Shown here piece by piece: positions 37,035-44,210 of a stretch of 64,000 nt of DNA. The notes beneath the pieces are model-generated. The model was not told the DNA's origin and did no database searches. It saw nothing but the letters and a program-made list of their open reading frames with translations. The translations under genes were made by a program, and so were the position numbers. Location: the NCBI GenBank assembly GCA_016795505.1, contig JAEUHH010000014.1, forward strand, positions 62,001 through 126,000, read 5' to 3'. Each line of letters opens with the position of its first letter. Within the stretch, counting starts at the first letter, position 1. The stretch comes from Verrucomicrobiales bacterium (GTDB taxonomy: Bacteria; Verrucomicrobiota; Verrucomicrobiia; Verrucomicrobiales; DEV007).

Positions 37035-38600
37035 TCACGGGTTGGCTGCGGGAATGGCATTGAGGGTGTAGTAGGCGACCGGATGGAGCAGCGGCACGGC
37101 GTCTCCGGCAGACCAGACACCCTCGGCATTCAATTCGTGACAGTAGCCGGGCCGGAGGCCCTCGCAGACGAGATCCACCGAAAGGCCATCGTCCGAAGGC
37201 GTGGCGGAGACGATGCGCACCTCGCGGGTGTCCACTTCCTCGCTGCCGTAGGTGCTGTGATATTTCCAGCAGTAGCTCGTCATGGCATAGGAATAGGGAT
37301 TGGCGGCGGTGTCGCCTTTGGCCGGCCGGGTGAAGGTGAGGCGGAAGCCATCGGGCCGGGCTTCCATTTTCTGGATCTCAAAGGGGACGGTGCCGGTAAA
37401 AACGAGGCGCTGCAGGCCGTAGCTGCGGGTGCCGAGGGAATTCCAGCCCCGGTTCGACTGGCCGACGGCGAGCGAGCCATCGGGGAGGAAGCCGAGGCTG
37501 ACCACGCCGCACTGGAGGCCCTTGCGGAAGTGAAAGCAGGCACCCTGGTAGTCGCCATTCACCTTTTCGAGGAACACGCGGGTGACGAAGGACTCGGTGA
37601 ACTCGCCGATGAAGAACTGGTTTTCGAAGGGGCCGAACCGTCCGGCGGTGCGGTCGCAGATCAGCGCGGTGGCGCTCATTCCGATCTTTCCATAGGGAAA
37701 CCACACGGCGGGCGGCCGGTAGCCGGGCACGCGTGAGATCGCCTCTGCGGTGGTGATGTCTTTCGGTAGATCGCCGGGATGTTTCACGGGCGACTCGGGG
37801 CGACCGGCATCGCGCAGGGCTTCGGCGTGTCCGTGGAAGACGCCCTCCCGGAGATGGAGCAGGGGACAGGTGCCCCACCAGTTCCCCTGCTGGTCGGTGG
37901 CAAAGATGTCGCCGAGGTGATTGGCCGCGACGCCATGGGGCGAGCGCAGGCCAGCGCTCATGGGGCGCAGGGGGCCGCCGTCGGCGGGCTTCATCAGGGA
38001 CCAACCCCGCCAGCGGAAGTCGGTGGCATGCGGCCCGGCGACGTCCTGACCGGCACCCATGGATTGGTTGAGGGTCAGCCAGAGGTTCCCCTCGCCATCG
38101 AAGGCCGGGCCATAGGCATATTCGTGGTAGTTCCCGGTGACGCCCCAGCCTTTGGCCGCCGTGAGATAGGCGTCGGCTTCGCCATCTCCGTCGGCATCCT
38201 CGATACGGGTGATCTCGCTGCGCTGGGCGGTGTAGAGGGCATCGGCATGCCAGGTCAGGCCGATCGGCTCGTGGAGGCCGGAGGCAAAGCGCATCCAGCG
38301 GTAGGCGTCGGGATCGTTGGATTCGGTGAGGGGATTCTCGAGTATCCAGATTTCTCCCTTTCGGATGGCGAGGGCGAGCCGCCCATCGGGCAGGGTGGCG
38401 GCGCCGGTGGCTTCCAGTTTTAGCGAGTCGGGCAGGGGATAGGTGACGAGCCGGTAATAGCGGGATTCGTCGTGCGGGTCCGGTTCGGCCTCGGTGGACC
38501 CGTCCTGAGCCCAGAGAAGCGCCGGCAAGAGTGTGGCAAGGAGCGACAAAACGGATCTGCGCCCGATCGTCGTCTTGCGGAAAGTGGCATTTTCTCGCAT
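37035..38600 (-). CDS. Exported PVC-type propeller dehydrogenase-like protein
   Basis: 521 residues from ATG 38600; ATG 38615 is an alternative. The N-terminus IGRRSVLSLLATLLPALLWA is a signal peptide with twin arginines, possibly Tat-dependent. The body is a beta-propeller related to PQQ-type sugar dehydrogenases and the PVC proteins at 18.7, 48.2 and 59.8 kb: ATLPDGRLALAIRKGEIWIL, EDADGDGEADAYLTAAKGWG, SAGLRSPHGVAANHLGDIFA, FGPFENQFFIGEFTESFVTR. No cytochrome or HEAT section. Cofactor and substrate unknown. Confidence 0.8.
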   Translation of the reverse strand: MRENATFRKTTIGRRSVLSLLATLLPALLWAQDGSTEAEPDPHDESRYYRLVTYPLPDSLKLEATGAATLPDGRLALAIRKGEIWILENPLTESNDPDAYRWMRFASGLHEPIGLTWHADALYTAQRSEITRIEDADGDGEADAYLTAAKGWGVTGNYHEYAYGPAFDGEGNLWLTLNQSMGAGQDVAGPHATDFRWRGWSLMKPADGGPLRPMSAGLRSPHGVAANHLGDIFATDQQGNWWGTCPLLHLREGVFHGHAEALRDAGRPESPVKHPGDLPKDITTAEAISRVPGYRPPAVWFPYGKIGMSATALICDRTAGRFGPFENQFFIGEFTESFVTRVFLEKVNGDYQGACFHFRKGLQCGVVSLGFLPDGSLAVGQSNRGWNSLGTRSYGLQRLVFTGTVPFEIQKMEARPDGFRLTFTRPAKGDTAANPYSYAMTSYCWKYHSTYGSEEVDTREVRIVSATPSDDGLSVDLVCEGLRPGYCHELNAEGVWSAGDAVPLLHPVAYYTLNAIPAANP

Positions 38601-38687
38601 CAAGTGGGAAAGCATCGTCACGCGGGAAGGATACGGCATTCCCGCCGAATGCGAACTCCGACATCCGCCACTTTTACCCCGCTACCG

Positions 38688-41048
38688 ATGAGTGTTCCGT
38701 CAGCCGAAATCGATCCCTATGTGTGGGCCACTCCCCATGAGGCAGACCTTGACTTGTGGCACCGGCATTTGGCGGACTTCGTGCCTCCGGACGCCTTCGA
38801 CGCGCATGCCCATCTCTGGCGGGTAGCCGATCTGGGCACGCCCACGCCGGCCCTCGCAGGTCACGGCCCCGCAGTGGTGACCCGTGCGGTCTACGATGAG
38901 AGACTGTCCCTGTGGATGCCGGGGCGGTGTCCGACGGGTGGGCTCTTTTTTCCGTTTCCCACCCGCCAGCTCGATGTGGAAGGCGCCAACCGCCATCTCG
39001 CCGATGAAATGCGCGGCGATCCGGGGTCGCGGGTACTCATGATCGCGACCCCCCGGCAGGACCCGGCGGCGGTGGAGCGGCAGTTGGACGAGGACGGCTT
39101 TGTCGGCTTCAAGGTTTACCATTTGTTCGCCGATCGGACGGATACGCTGTTCGCCACCACGGATGAGTTCATCCCCGAATGGGCCTGGGAACTGGCCGAC
39201 CAGCGGGGCCTGGCGATCATGCTGCACATGGTGCTGCCACGGGCGGTGGCCGAGCCGGAAAACCAGCGCTACATCCGCGAGCATTGCACCCGGTATCCAG
39301 GTGCCCGCCTGATCCTGGCGCATGCGGCGCGGGGCTTCTGCGGTCGTCACACGGTCGAGGGGATCGGCTCGTTGCGCGGGTTGGATAATGTGTATTTTGA
39401 TACGTCGGCCGTGTGCGAGGCCTCGGCCTTCGAGGCGATCCTGGACGTGTTCGGTCCGACGCGGCTCTTTTTCGGCGCGGATTTCTGCGTCACGGAGATG
39501 CGGAGTCGCTGCGTGAATCTCGCGGATGGCTTCCTCTGGCTCGATGAGATTCGCTCGGACTACTCTAGATCGCGTTTTGCCCGTCCCACTCTGCTGGGAC
39601 TGGAATCGCTGCTCGCTCTCAAGGAAGCGTGCTGGAACCGGCATCTCGATGCGACAGATGTGGAGGAGATTTTCTGTCTCGGTGCCAGACGACTGTTGGG
39701 GCTGCCTTTGCCACGTCCCGTGCCCGATGTGCAGGCGGCCTACCGGGAGGCGCGGGCCATTATTCCGGGGGGGACGCAATTACTCAGCAAGCGGCCGGAG
39801 ATGTTCGCTCCCGATCAATGGCCGGCTTACTATCGCGAAGCCCGCGGCTGCGAGGTGATCGACCTCGAGGGCCGCCGCTATATCGACATGAGCCTCGGCG
39901 GCATCCTGTCCACCATCCTGGGCTATGCCGATCCGGATGTGAATGCCGCCGTGATCCGGCGCGTCTCGCTGGGGTCGATGGCGACGCTCCAGACGCATGA
40001 CGAGGTGGAGTTGGCTCACTTGCTGACGCGAATCCATCCCTGGGCCGGTCAGGTGCGTTTTACGCGGGCCGGCGGCGAGTCGATGGCGGTGGCGGTACGA
40101 ATTGCGCGGGCATTCACCGGTCGCGACAAGGTGGCCATTTGCGGCTACCACGGCTGGCACGACTGGTATCTGGCTGCCAATCTGGCTGCTCCCGGGGCCG
40201 GTGATGGAGCCGACCGTCTCGTGGGGCATTTGCTGCCGGGCCTGGAGCCGTCGGGCGTGCCGTCTGGCTTGGCGGGGGATGCGTTGACCTTCCGTTACAA
40301 CCGGCTCGACGAGCTGGATGCCATCCTGGCGCAGCACGGCTCCGAACTGGCCGCCATCGTCATGGAGCCCACCCGCCAAACCGATCCCGAGCCCGGATTT
40401 CTCGAAGGCGTTCGCGAACGCTGCGACCGGATCGGGGCGCGGCTGATTTTTGACGAAATCTCGATCGGCTGGCGTCTGTGCCTCGGGGGGGCGCACCTGA
40501 AGTTCGGCGTCACGCCCGATCTGGCGGTATTTGCCAAGGCGTTGGGCAACGGCTTTCCCATCGGCGCGGTACTGGGGAATCGCGAGACGATGCAGGCGGC
40601 CCAGGGCTCCTTCATTTCGAGCACTTTCTGGACCGAGGGTGTCGGTCCCGCCGCCGCGCTGGCTTGCGTGAAGAAGCAGATGTCGCTCGATGTGCCCGCC
40701 CATCTCGCCCGCATCGGCAGCCTCGTGATCGCAGGTTGGCAGGAACTGGGCCGGCGGCAAGGGGTGCCGGTAAAGACCCCGGGGCGGCCGGAAATGACGC
40801 TGCTGGCCTTCGATCATCCCGAGGCGGCCGCGCTGACGACGCTGATGACGGCCCGGATGCTCCGGCGTGGGTTTCTGGCCGGCGGGGCCTTCAATCCCAT
40901 GCTAGCCCACGAGCCGCGCCATGTGGAGGCTTATCTGGCGGCGTTGGACGAGGTGTTTGCCGAGATGGCCGTGGCGATTCGCGAGGGCGACATCGCCGGA
41001 CGGATTGGCGGACCGGTCAAGCACACTGGATTTGCCCGTCTGACCTGA
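38688..41048 (+). CDS. Bifunctional amidohydrolase / class III aminotransferase fusion
   Basis: 786 residues from ATG 38688. Residues about 20-340 form an amidohydrolase-2 TIM barrel: His40-Ala-His42 in FDAHAHLW, GFVGFKVYHLF, RLILAHAARGF and FFGADFC. Residues about 350-786 form a PLP-dependent class III aminotransferase like glutamate-1-semialdehyde aminomutase: AIIPGGTQLLSKRPEMFAPD, TRAGGESMAVAVRIARAF, GYHGWHDWYLA, Asp589 in LIFDEISIGWRL and the PLP lysine Lys617 in FAKALGNGFPIGAVLG. Both halves keep their key residues. The frame is unbroken, so this is one polypeptide; substrate unknown. Divergent from the propeller gene (87 bp). Confidence 0.85.
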   Translation: MSVPSAEIDPYVWATPHEADLDLWHRHLADFVPPDAFDAHAHLWRVADLGTPTPALAGHGPAVVTRAVYDERLSLWMPGRCPTGGLFFPFPTRQLDVEGANRHLADEMRGDPGSRVLMIATPRQDPAAVERQLDEDGFVGFKVYHLFADRTDTLFATTDEFIPEWAWELADQRGLAIMLHMVLPRAVAEPENQRYIREHCTRYPGARLILAHAARGFCGRHTVEGIGSLRGLDNVYFDTSAVCEASAFEAILDVFGPTRLFFGADFCVTEMRSRCVNLADGFLWLDEIRSDYSRSRFARPTLLGLESLLALKEACWNRHLDATDVEEIFCLGARRLLGLPLPRPVPDVQAAYREARAIIPGGTQLLSKRPEMFAPDQWPAYYREARGCEVIDLEGRRYIDMSLGGILSTILGYADPDVNAAVIRRVSLGSMATLQTHDEVELAHLLTRIHPWAGQVRFTRAGGESMAVAVRIARAFTGRDKVAICGYHGWHDWYLAANLAAPGAGDGADRLVGHLLPGLEPSGVPSGLAGDALTFRYNRLDELDAILAQHGSELAAIVMEPTRQTDPEPGFLEGVRERCDRIGARLIFDEISIGWRLCLGGAHLKFGVTPDLAVFAKALGNGFPIGAVLGNRETMQAAQGSFISSTFWTEGVGPAAALACVKKQMSLDVPAHLARIGSLVIAGWQELGRRQGVPVKTPGRPEMTLLAFDHPEAAALTTLMTARMLRRGFLAGGAFNPMLAHEPRHVEAYLAALDEVFAEMAVAIREGDIAGRIGGPVKHTGFARLT

Positions 41049-41054
41049 GTCGCC

Positions 41055-42221
41055 TCAGTCCCGTCTGCCGGCGTATCGCTCCAAGGCCCACGTCTTGAAG
41101 GCAGTCTGGGCTTTGGCGCCCTCGCCGGGGAATCCACCGGTTTGCTGCACCATCCAGACCAGTGCGAGGCCCGGTTCGGGGCGGATTTCCATGCCCGTCG
41201 CGTGAGCGCCGCCGTGGCCGAAATGCTCCGGCTCCACTTTGAACCCCAGTCCGTAGCTGTCCTTCACGGCCGTCGGCGTCTGGCGGCGGGTCAGCTCGTT
41301 CCATGCCGACTCGCTGATGAGGCGTTTTCCATTCAGTTCTCCGCGGCGGAGCATCATCCGGCAGAAAAGGGCGGTGTCGCCTGCGGTGGAAAAGAGGCCG
41401 CCCGCCGGCATCGGGAAGCGCTTTGACCGTTCATCCAGGGGATAAAGGAGTTGGGAAATCGGAGTCTCGACCAAGCCGTCCTTGGCTTCGTTGGGGCGGT
41501 AGGATTTTGCCAGCCGTTCCAATTGCACGCCAGAGGGCCAGAAGGTGGTGTCCTTCATGCCCAGCGGGTCAAACAGCCGTTGCTGCATGAATGTCTCGTA
41601 GGGCAGATCCGAAACCACCTCCAGCACCCTCGCCGCGGTGTTGATGCCGGCGTTCGAATAGCGATAGGCCGTCCCTGGCTCGGTGAGCAGGGGTGTTACG
41701 GCATAGCTGCGCACGGCAGCCGCGAGAGGCAGGCCGTCGAGCGTGGGAACTTCGATGGGAGACTGGAACGGCATGCCGGCCACGTGGCACAGGGTGTCCC
41801 GGATGGTCACCGGTCTGGCGGGCTTTTTCAGGACCACTCGATCCGGGGTTTCCTCGGCGATCAGCATCTGGCCGCGGAATTCGGGGAGGTATTTGTGGAC
41901 CGGATCGTCGAGCGAGATCTTTCCCTCGTCGACGAGCATCATTACCGCCACGGCGGTCATCGGCTTGCTCTGGGAGGCGATCCAGAACAGCGAGTCCGTC
42001 GTCATCGGTCTATCGTTGGCGAGATCGGCGAAGCCGGCAGCCTCCACGGTGAGCACGCCATCGCGGTCCGCCACCAGAGCCACGGCTCCGGCCAGTTCGC
42101 CCCGGTCGACGAATGGCTGGATTGTTTCGACGAGAGCGCCGGTCCGGGAGGCTTGGGCGATCAAATTGGAGGTGCATAGCGCGATCGCCAGCAGGGAGAT
42201 GGGCAGAATTCGGATGTTCAT
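41055..42221 (-). CDS. Exported serine hydrolase, beta-lactamase (class C/S12) family
   Basis: 388 residues with a signal peptide (LPISLLAIALCTSNLIAQA). The catalytic Ser83-Gln-Ser-Lys86 (ASQSKPMTA), Tyr188-Ser-Asn190 (YRYSNAG) and the third motif HGGAHATG are all present. Proteins of this family include D-aminopeptidases, esterases and penicillin-binding proteins, so beta-lactam resistance should not be assumed. Lies 16 bp downstream of the YafK-like gene on the same strand, suggesting a two-gene unit acting on the cell wall. Confidence 0.88.
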   Translation of the reverse strand: MNIRILPISLLAIALCTSNLIAQASRTGALVETIQPFVDRGELAGAVALVADRDGVLTVEAAGFADLANDRPMTTDSLFWIASQSKPMTAVAVMMLVDEGKISLDDPVHKYLPEFRGQMLIAEETPDRVVLKKPARPVTIRDTLCHVAGMPFQSPIEVPTLDGLPLAAAVRSYAVTPLLTEPGTAYRYSNAGINTAARVLEVVSDLPYETFMQQRLFDPLGMKDTTFWPSGVQLERLAKSYRPNEAKDGLVETPISQLLYPLDERSKRFPMPAGGLFSTAGDTALFCRMMLRRGELNGKRLISESAWNELTRRQTPTAVKDSYGLGFKVEPEHFGHGGAHATGMEIRPEPGLALVWMVQQTGGFPGEGAKAQTAFKTWALERYAGRRD

Positions 42222-42237: not shown

Positions 42238-43218
42238 TCAGTGAAAGCGGTATTTGCCCTCGGCGACGGTCACGTTTGGCGGTCGTTTGAGGAACTCAAA
42301 GTAGTCGTAGCCTTCCTTCAGGTTGGCCCAGAAATCGAACCATTTGGCATCCGTTTTCAGGGAGTCCATCCGCTCGTCGCTCATCCGGAATGGGAAAGAG
42401 TGAACCCGGAAAAACGCCTGCCCTCCCTGCAGGGCGGCGGCGGCGAGGGTGTAAATTTCCTCAATCGCCGGATCGGTCATGGCAAAGCAGCCGATCGAGA
42501 CGCAATTGCCGTGGACCATCAGATAGCTGCCGGTGCGGCCGTGGTGGCGGTCGTAGTCGTTGGGAAACCCGAGGTCGAAGGCGAGGTGATACTGGCTCTC
42601 CGGATTCATGCGGCGGGGAGGCACGAAGTAAAATCCCTCGGGTGCCTGACCGTCACCTTCCTTGAGCTTCGGTCCCAGTTCGCCCGACCACTTGCAGATG
42701 GGCCAGGACTTGAAGAGCACGTATTCGGCGCCCGGCTCCGGTTCCATCCATAGCTCCAGTTCGTTCGATTCCTTGAAGATCCGGACGAACACCGGCAGGC
42801 CGGCACGCAATCCCTTTGCTGACAGCTCTTTTTCCAATGGTGGCATCACCCGCTGGGCGGCGTCGCGGGATCGTTCGGACTCGATCCGTCCGGAGCCGTC
42901 TGGAACTGCCGGATCTCCCGAAGTCGAAAACAGATCGCGGATAAAGCCCACCGCTTTCTCGGCGGCCGATGGTGCTGCGGGGCTGTCGGTCATTTCCGGC
43001 CCTGTCACGGTTTCGATCAAGCCGGACAGGTCGTCGCCGGGTCGCCGGTCCGGCGAAACGGGCTCGGATACCGGAGCGCTGTCCTCCAGCACGGCCCCGG
43101 TGGCGGGAGTCGGGGACGCCGAGCGGTCATGCTGGTGGATCCAGTCATTCACCAGCCAGGGCAGGGCCGCCGCGAGGCCCAGCACGGCTATCCAGGCGAT
43201 CCATTGCAACACTCTCAC
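42238..43218 (-). CDS. L,D-transpeptidase of the YafK type, membrane-anchored
   Basis: 326 residues. An N-terminal transmembrane anchor (WIAWIAVLGLAAALPWLV) is followed by a Pro/Ser/Asp-rich linker to about residue 100. The YafK-type catalytic domain (about 120-310) carries PEGFYFVPPRRMNPESQYHL and the active-site segment SYLMVHGNCVSIGCFAMTD with the nucleophilic Cys. E. coli relatives cleave or form peptidoglycan-lipoprotein links. Probably cotranscribed with the beta-lactamase-family gene. Confidence 0.88.
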   Translation of the reverse strand: MRVLQWIAWIAVLGLAAALPWLVNDWIHQHDRSASPTPATGAVLEDSAPVSEPVSPDRRPGDDLSGLIETVTGPEMTDSPAAPSAAEKAVGFIRDLFSTSGDPAVPDGSGRIESERSRDAAQRVMPPLEKELSAKGLRAGLPVFVRIFKESNELELWMEPEPGAEYVLFKSWPICKWSGELGPKLKEGDGQAPEGFYFVPPRRMNPESQYHLAFDLGFPNDYDRHHGRTGSYLMVHGNCVSIGCFAMTDPAIEEIYTLAAAALQGGQAFFRVHSFPFRMSDERMDSLKTDAKWFDFWANLKEGYDYFEFLKRPPNVTVAEGKYRFH

Positions 43219-43328
43219 GGCGGAAACGATCTCTACGGGGTGACGACCCGGTTCGAATCACACCTTGCCACGATTTCCTCCCGATCGCCGTTGAAATTCT
43301 GGGGAAACATCGGCAGACTGCTGCCCCT

Positions 43329-44210
43329 ATGTCGCTTTCCCCTGATTTTCTCGCTCCCGCCATCGGTATCATCGGCGGCTCCGGACTCTACGAGATCGAT
43401 GGATTTGAGCATGGCGAGGAGATCCGCGTGGAGACGCCCTTCGGTCCGCCCTCGGATGCCATCATGACCGGCAGTTTCGCGGGTCGCCGGGTCTGTTTCC
43501 TGCCCCGGCATGGTCGGGGACACCGGATCCTGCCGACGGAATTGAATCACCGCGCCAACATCTGGGCGCTCCGTTCGCTGGGCGTACGCTGGATTGTGGC
43601 AGTCACGGCGGTGGGGTCCTTGCGGGAGGAGTATCGTCCCCGCGACATCCTGTTGCCCGACCAATTCTTCGACCGGACCAGCCGACGGACGGAGCACACC
43701 TTTTTCGGCCGGGGCATCGTCGCCCACGTGGCTTTTGGCGACCCCATTTCCATCGGGCTCCGCGCCCTGCTCGCCGAGGCTGCCGGGGAGCTCGGTCTTC
43801 CCTGTCACAATGGCGGCACCTATGTGAACATGGACGGTCCGGCCTTTTCCACCCGCGCCGAATCGGAAACCAACCGCCGCCTCGGTTTCGATGTGATCGG
43901 AATGACCAATCTCCCCGAGGCCAAGCTGGCCCGGGAGGCGGAGATCGCGCTCGCCACGCTCGCGATGATCACCGACTACGACTGCTGGAAAGTGGAGGAG
44001 GAAGCCGTCACCGCCCACGCCGTCATTGAGCACGTGCAAGCCAATGCCGTCACCGCGAAGCGCGTGCTTGCCCAGGTCATTCCCACCATTCCCGCTGTGG
44101 CCGACTGGCCGGAGCACCGTGCTCTCGACAGCGCCCTGTTCACCGACCGGTCGATCTGGCCCGAGGACACCATCGAGCGATTGCGCCCCCTGTTGGATCG
44201 GTTTCTCTAA
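43329..44210 (+). CDS. mtnP: S-methyl-5'-thioadenosine phosphorylase
   Basis: 293 residues from ATG 43329. Cleaves methylthioadenosine to adenine and methylthioribose-1-phosphate in methionine salvage. IGIIGGSGLYEIDGF, FLPRHGRGHRILPTELNHRA, VTAVGSLREEYRPRDILLPD and the nucleoside-site GGTYVNMDGPAFSTRAES with GMTNLPEAKLAREAE are typical of the trimeric MTAP family. The open frame extends left but without similarity. Followed by a terminator. Confidence 0.93.
   Translation: MSLSPDFLAPAIGIIGGSGLYEIDGFEHGEEIRVETPFGPPSDAIMTGSFAGRRVCFLPRHGRGHRILPTELNHRANIWALRSLGVRWIVAVTAVGSLREEYRPRDILLPDQFFDRTSRRTEHTFFGRGIVAHVAFGDPISIGLRALLAEAAGELGLPCHNGGTYVNMDGPAFSTRAESETNRRLGFDVIGMTNLPEAKLAREAEIALATLAMITDYDCWKVEEEAVTAHAVIEHVQANAVTAKRVLAQVIPTIPAVADWPEHRALDSALFTDRSIWPEDTIERLRPLLDRFL

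Follow-up and report, generated by a model that had tools for sequence, protein, structure and literature searches.

What is accomplished by joining a TIM-barrel amidohydrolase and a class III pyridoxal 5'-phosphate (PLP)-dependent enzyme in one polypeptide? The question is raised by a gene of a Verrucomicrobiales bacterium (assembly GCA_016795505.1), located at positions 38688-41048 (+ strand) of the 64,000-nucleotide stretch of contig JAEUHH010000014.1 analyzed here (hereafter the window). The gene encodes 786 amino acids followed by a TGA stop and is open from ATG to TGA, with no internal stops in the 786 translated codons. A longer mechanical open reading frame (ORF) of 858 amino acids begins at GTG 38472; the ATG at 38688 is favored because close homologs first align at residues 4-7 of the protein. 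The original prediction had described one 786-residue protein combining a TIM-barrel amidohydrolase with an HxH motif (H40/H42) and a class III PLP enzyme with K617, and the translation, Pfam matches, and AlphaFold2 modeling agree with it. The full-length model (52 sequences) shows two confident domains, with a mean predicted local distance difference test score (pLDDT) of 89.4 and a predicted template-modeling score (pTM) of 0.85, and both domains are intact with conserved active-site residues. We have hardly any doubt that the product is a real, conserved, and functional hydrolase-aminotransferase pair.

The N half (residues 1-345, 38688-39722, +) is an Amidohydro_2 TIM barrel (approximately residues 34-340), assigned from PF04909, the structural model, and fold matches. 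Scanned alone, it matches PF04909 over residues 38-339 with 59.5 bits (cut-off 26.4), and this match surfaced only in the separate scan, PF00202 being the sole listing for the full-length protein. Modeled alone (31 sequences), the N half reaches a pLDDT of 92.4 and a pTM of 0.91. Two-metal amidohydrolases carry an HxH motif on strand 1, a lysine on strand 4, histidines on strands 5 and 6, and an aspartate on strand 8. In the model, the barrel has these residues on the expected strands, with H40-A-H42 (38805-38813, +) on strand 1, K142 (39111-39113, +), the presumed metal-bridging residue, at the end of strand 4, H180 (39225-39227, +) and H212 (39321-39323, +), the presumed metal ligands, after strands 5 and 6, and D265 (39480-39482, +), a presumed metal ligand or general base, on strand 8. 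Among 48 aligned barrels (37 fused, 3 split, and 8 stand-alone), H42, K142, H180, H212, and D265 are invariant (48/48) and H40 is kept in 47 (37/37 fused, 3/3 split, and 7/8 stand-alone). The modeled arrangement suggests a presumed metal-dependent hydrolase site of the two-metal type.

A single-sequence search of the N half against solved structures gave no match, and a profile search reached gamma-resorcylate and ACMSD decarboxylase chains at E values of 0.003-0.35. By fold, the closest entry is the COG3618 amidohydrolase 4dlf (Z 22.3, root-mean-square deviation 3.1, 253 residues, 17% identity), which we take to be L-fucono-1,5-lactonase, an enzyme whose discovery is reportedly described by Hobbs (2013). 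COG3618 enzymes (4dlf, 4do7, and the 2-pyrone-4,6-dicarboxylate (PDC) hydrolase LigI, 4d8l) come out closest to the barrel in fold by a narrow margin and, unlike the fusion, possess no PLP half. The ACMSD, gamma-resorcylate, and isoorotate decarboxylases of COG2159 share the PF04909 fold (Z 18-21, 13-16% identity), but they occur in another neighborhood and likewise without a PLP half.

The C half (residues 346-786, 39723-41045, +; domain at approximately 348-786) is a class III fold-type I PLP enzyme resembling glutamate-1-semialdehyde aminomutase (GSAM). PF00202 (Aminotran_3) matches residues 378-732 with 136.8 bits (cut-off 30.5), and the PDB matches listed for the full protein all fall on this half, including GSAM 5i92 (E 1.5e-46). 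K617 (40536-40538, +), the PLP Schiff-base lysine, aligns with the lysine of 5i92, and D589-E590 (40452-40457, +) forms the motif of the aspartate facing the PLP pyridine nitrogen. All three residues are invariant in the 79 rows compared (35/35 fused, 41/41 solo, and 3/3 split), and the active-site columns are identical between fused and solo aminotransferases. With HemL (5i92, 2gsa), the C half shares the fold, the aligned lysine and DE motif, and approximately 30% identity, whereas it differs in phosphate-site and substrate-loop residues, in bearing a barrel domain, and in gene context. PRK06209 (NF004856) is the best NCBIfam match of the fusion, at 211.5 bits against a cut-off of 486, and also that of the six solo relatives scanned, which likewise stay below the cut-off (242-277 bits). 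At 47-57% identity, PRK06209 proteins and the solo aminotransferases of nonulosonic-acid clusters agree with the fusion in their active-site columns; the solo proteins lack the barrel and occur in a biosynthetic context, in contrast to the catabolic context of the fusion. None of the named enzyme models tested (hemL, PRK06209, PbfA, and fuconolactonase) scores the fusion above its cut-off.

The possibility of a sequencing artefact at the join, near residue 345, was examined and rejected: many independent assemblies carry the same open fusion, both in relatives and at many loci of named genomes. In the related genomes, a single match spans both halves in 17 of 95 (own genome included), the relatives being 40-84% identical, and no stops are listed in these fusion-family matches. 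Genome G082 carries both halves in one 803-amino-acid frame; the match in G015 runs off the contig end, and those in G002 and G034 are truncated where their contigs stop. Scanning of named genomes yielded at least 80 loci. Among the 80 listed, the two halves share one frame of more than 590 amino acids at 36 and the C half stands alone at 41; loci L050 and L118, to which no single frame was assigned, and L058, at a contig end, are excluded from the fused-ORF counts. The two genome sets overlap, the same contigs being represented by L040/G049, L042/G038, L068/G088, and L075/G082. Fused rows span at least eight phyla (Verrucomicrobiota, Planctomycetota, Bacteroidota, Acidobacteriota, Armatimonadota, Hydrogenedentota, Spirochaetota, and Bacillota). 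The carriers are mostly metagenome bins, and the named strains among them are Brevifollis gellanilyticus NBRC 108608, Chitinophaga alhagiae T22, and Membranihabitans marinus CZ-AZ5. In the plasmid and phage collections, no record spanned 80% of the fusion query; phage matches to hemL were ordinary GSAM.

The halves also occur apart. An N-half profile found 52 of 387 phylum-sample genomes at E 1e-25, mostly as stand-alone frames of 320-400 amino acids. That the two halves might exist elsewhere as adjacent separate genes, as had been proposed for checking, proved to be the case in both orders: among 20 barrel places inspected, the C half adjoins as a separate gene at three with checked ORFs, the barrel preceding the aminotransferase in G255 and G284 and following it in G400. 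Coordinates indicate two further adjacent pairs, in G238 and G364, and one of the 41 solo loci examined, Solibacteraceae L084, has a divergent adjoining barrel gene (45% identity). At locus L165 (G105:C38, 4442-6900, -), the gene of a barrel relative shares 4 bases with that of another class III aminotransferase, approximately 27% identical to the C half of the fusion, which suggests that barrels of this type have partners in at least two aminotransferase families. Within the phylum sample, the C-half family was detected at E 1e-60 in 23 of 50 genomes with a barrel and in 3 of 80 genomes without one. With the seven genomes bearing fused copies set aside, it is present in 16 of 43 versus 3 of 80, a difference whose Fisher p of 2.4e-6 serves as a guide only because the 80 controls were unmatched to the positives for lineage or genome size.

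Trees of the separate halves indicate a history of more than one joining. The C-half tree places 35 fused, 7 solo, and 2 split rows together in a single group separate from most solo proteins (Shimodaira-Hasegawa-like approximate likelihood ratio support, SH-aLRT, 99), and the C half of G400 falls among the solo proteins. The C halves of the Planctomycetota fusions L051, L052, and L055 group with L045 near the window protein (96), whereas in the N-half tree their barrels group with split and stand-alone barrels (98) and not with the group of the window protein. In topology tests, made with quick searches on groups picked after the trees had been viewed, three arrangements were rejected: barrels constrained to the C-half grouping (approximately unbiased test, p 6.8e-11), all fused barrels united in a single clade (p 1.5e-6), and the C halves of L051, L052, and L055 forced together with split C halves (p 1.3e-5). 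The N-half tree and the tests omit three duplicate fused rows (L040, L042, and L068). Since the half-trees are discordant for the Planctomycetota group, the sequences point to two families that were fused at least twice or to a barrel that was replaced, and such repeated fusion or replacement in turn implies selection for the pair. Split adjacent pairs, co-occurrence, and repeated joining together make the functional link between the halves well supported, and the two halves very probably act in the same pathway.

The gene context of the fused and solo proteins indicates where such a pathway may lie. For the fused clade, 110 operon mates from 34 loci were listed, and among the 101 of them that were scanned we found SDR (10), HpcH_HpaI (7), BNR_2 (7), Amidohydro_2 (5), GFO_IDH_MocA (5), DHDPS (4), and MFS (4) proteins and, more rarely, SSF (3), AKR (2), MR_MLE (2), and SusD (2) proteins. 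Two contrasts served for comparison, the solo loci and the own-genome count of HpcH_HpaI, which exceeds its cut-off just five times in the whole 6.5-Mb genome. Ten neighbors compared with NCBIfam models were most like GarL/HpaI aldolases, 5-dehydro-4-deoxyglucarate dehydratase, and DapA, with further likenesses to gluconate 5-dehydrogenase/KduD and a D-galactonate transporter, all below cut-offs; four of the ten had no NCBIfam match at E 1e-20. Of 252 listed operon mates of the solo proteins, the 104 lying no more than two places away include CTP_transf_3 (19), GFO_IDH_MocA (13), AKR (12), NeuB (8), DegT (6), and Acetyltransf_3 (6). SpsF-like, NeuB-like, and DegT-like genes lie within six genes at 25, 17, and 23 of the 41 solo loci, respectively, and at none of the 36 fused loci. 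The contexts thus differ sharply: fused proteins stand with sugar-acid catabolic genes, whereas solo proteins stand in pseudaminic/legionaminic-type biosynthesis clusters. On the Pseudosulfitobacter plasmid pSMR1-1 (NZ_CP022416.1, 7263-9296; L176), an aminotransferase of the C-half family forms one protein with a CTP_transf_3 cytidylyltransferase and is encoded between pseB-pseC and pseG-pseI of a pseudaminic-acid cluster, which provides a second, biosynthetic fusion partner. A comparable arrangement is given for a Legionella O-antigen locus, where PseG, a 'glutamate-1-semialdehyde aminomutase', and an acylneuraminate cytidylyltransferase stand in a row in the available text of PMC3694923. EpaA/EpaB (8-epipseudaminic acid) were considered as C-half relatives and dropped, as the portion of the source available never says aminotransferase.

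A role in the breakdown of a sugar-like acid is the part of the functional reading that we regard as likely. More specifically, and with slightly less than even confidence, we propose that the protein is a bifunctional enzyme of the cytosol, serving a pathway for the catabolism of a sugar acid, probably an amino-sugar acid. In such a pathway, a neighboring dehydrogenase would generate a cyclic sugar-acid product, which the barrel would open by metal-assisted, lactonase-like hydrolysis; the PLP half would, by transamination, take away or shift an amino group of that carbon skeleton, and an aldolase of the HpcH/HpaI or DHDPS type would then cleave the resulting 2-keto-3-deoxy acid into pyruvate and an aldehyde. 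The fusion would hold two consecutive or near-consecutive steps together; the barrel may hand its product on to the aminotransferase, as the original prediction suggested, and channeling between the sites is possible, although it is not required, because each half is also found as a protein of its own. Given the sugar-acid dehydrogenases and aldolases encoded next door, the simplest guess for the barrel is a lactonase-like hydrolysis. As the lysine and aspartate are kept and the loops are the same as in solo nonulosonic-acid enzymes, the substrate of the PLP half is probably a sugar acid bearing an amino or keto group. The exact predicted chemistry, a lactonase coupled to a transaminase, is put forward with rather more doubt than the pathway itself. 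The gene set resembles in part the non-phosphorylating L-fucose route (FucA, the lactonase FucB, FucC, FucF, and FucH), which, in the available part of PMC11199699, comprises a dehydrogenase, an Amidohydro_2 lactonase, an enolase-type dehydratase, an SDR, and an aldolase. These enzyme types are also found around the fusion, but the L-fucose route has no aminotransferase step and the gene sets on the fusion side are variable and incomplete.

Several observations weigh against this proposal. Each neighbor family occurs in a minority of fused loci (an SDR cluster at 12/36, HpcH at 8/36), and in the own genome the partner cluster lies away on contig C69, with no catabolic genes beside the fusion. 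The fuconolactonase model NF052480 gives only 17.2 bits against a cut-off of 400, the COG2159 decarboxylases trail 4dlf by only about one Z unit (Z 21.1 and below), and the strand-4 lysine, a hint of two metals, presumably sets the barrel apart from some lactonases of the COG3618-type group. Furthermore, 27 of the 50 barrel-positive genomes lack the C-half family at E 1e-60.

These points leave room for other readings. One retains the bifunctional pathway enzyme and makes the barrel a decarboxylase (ACMSD, gamma-resorcylate, or 5-carboxyvanillate type) or an N-acyl- or lactam-type hydrolase. We consider it a possible though unlikely variant: decarboxylases occupy fold ranks 4-29 (Z 20-21) and are the chains reached by the profile search, yet the top fold matches belong to COG3618, the sugar-acid neighbors suit lactone chemistry, and, by the rules of the superfamily, the strand-4 lysine and strand-6 histidine are closer to two-metal hydrolases than to one-metal decarboxylases. 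A similarly unlikely proposal, on balance, is that the fused enzyme belongs to nonulosonic-acid (pseudaminic/legionaminic-type) metabolism, as the degradative equivalent of the solo aminotransferases of the biosynthesis clusters. The solo relatives at 47-57% identity that sit with CTP_transf_3, NeuB, DegT, and acetyltransferases, one of them being fused to a cytidylyltransferase, speak for such a connection, as do the shared active-site columns and the presence in fused clusters of BNR_2 (a sialidase-type propeller) and of DHDPS/HpcH aldolases. Against it, fused and solo proteins fall mostly in different clades, the aldolases near the fusions are nearer to GarL/HpaI than to N-acetylneuraminate lyase, and the BNR_2 genes are only putative sialidases.

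The remaining alternatives concern the PLP half or the fusion itself. Class III enzymes include transaminases, aminomutases, and ammonia-lyases, so that the PLP half could be a GSAM-like aminomutase or a PbfA-like vicinal amino alcohol ammonia-lyase. Its nearest solved relatives are indeed glutamate-1-semialdehyde aminomutases, and the model of PbfA, (R)-1-hydroxy-2-aminoethylphosphonate ammonia-lyase (NF049939), does match. However, both matches are far short of the cut-offs (hemL, 183.2 of 527.3 bits; PbfA, 97.7 of 525 bits), and the family invariants GGE, YHGWHDWY, and SSxxWT are unlike GSAM at positions comparable with 5i92; a transaminase is more likely, and we judge the aminomutase or ammonia-lyase improbable to a slightly greater degree than the two preceding readings. 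Existing models currently label this half as a heme enzyme, which constitutes an annotation trap. That the protein is a heme-pathway GSAM with an accessory domain is scarcely credible and was rejected: although the nearest solved structures are GSAM and the own genome (G000, 96.6% complete) has no other hemL above the TIGR00713 cut-off, the C half reaches 183-185 bits against the required 527.3, and a separate hemL over the cut-off is present in 27 of 29 genomes, including those of the same genus (G001-G003) and the fusion carriers G001, G002, G009, G013, and G015. The best TIGR00713 match of G000 (268.6 bits) is a domain within a 2035-amino-acid frame on contig C111 (G000:C111:714-1883), and the apparent absence of hemL from this genome is probably an assembly gap. 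Frames of approximately 2000-3900 amino acids with a class III aminotransferase domain recur across many genomes of the family and resemble multi-domain biosynthesis proteins. Finally, a chance joining of unrelated activities, or one with a vestigial half, would fit the ability of each half to live alone, as in the 27 barrel-positive genomes mentioned above; active-site residues invariant in both halves, adjacency in several arrangements, repeated joining, and co-occurrence make it very improbable.

The genes next to the fusion in the window look unrelated to it. The fusion is flanked by a divergent gene encoding a protein with a DUF7133/PVC-type heme-protein-like N-terminal domain (37035-38639, -) and by a convergent gene encoding a serine beta-lactamase-fold protein (41055-42221, -), neither of which is conserved beside the fusion; an operon is therefore unsupported, since the flanking genes face other ways. 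Further downstream lie genes for a relative of DpaA/YafK-like L,D-transpeptidases that scores 224 bits against a cut-off of 365 (42238-43218, -) and for an S-methyl-5'-thioadenosine phosphorylase that passes its cut-off (43308-44207, +). In close relatives, a secreted propeller-like protein is often encoded ahead of the fusion, with beta-helix, BNR, esterase, and other secreted genes nearby. A region of the own genome (L173, G000:C69:1-20000) contains secreted propeller, BNR, peptidase/esterase, and SGNH-like genes, which adjoin the fusion in relatives and are apart from it here.

The original prediction noted no characterized enzyme of this architecture, which fits the structure and literature searches; in the latter, covering mostly titles and the beginnings of abstracts, no description of the fusion was recognized. 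The domain families are known, and the architecture is uncharacterized, recurrent, and set in a definable pathway context. Pseudaminic and legionaminic acids are surface sugars made by many bacteria, and a targeted search of titles found no paper on their degradation. The fusion might, although we hold this to be improbable at present, be the signature of an undescribed and widespread route degrading nonulosonic-type or other amino-deoxy sugar acids, in which a PLP family that builds such sugars alongside a cytidylyltransferase would, on more than one occasion, have gained a metal hydrolase as its new partner for degrading them. The recurrent pair and its conserved sugar-acid neighbors offer a testable entry point to such degradation, for which cultured carriers exist in the Brevifollis, Chitinophaga, and Membranihabitans strains.

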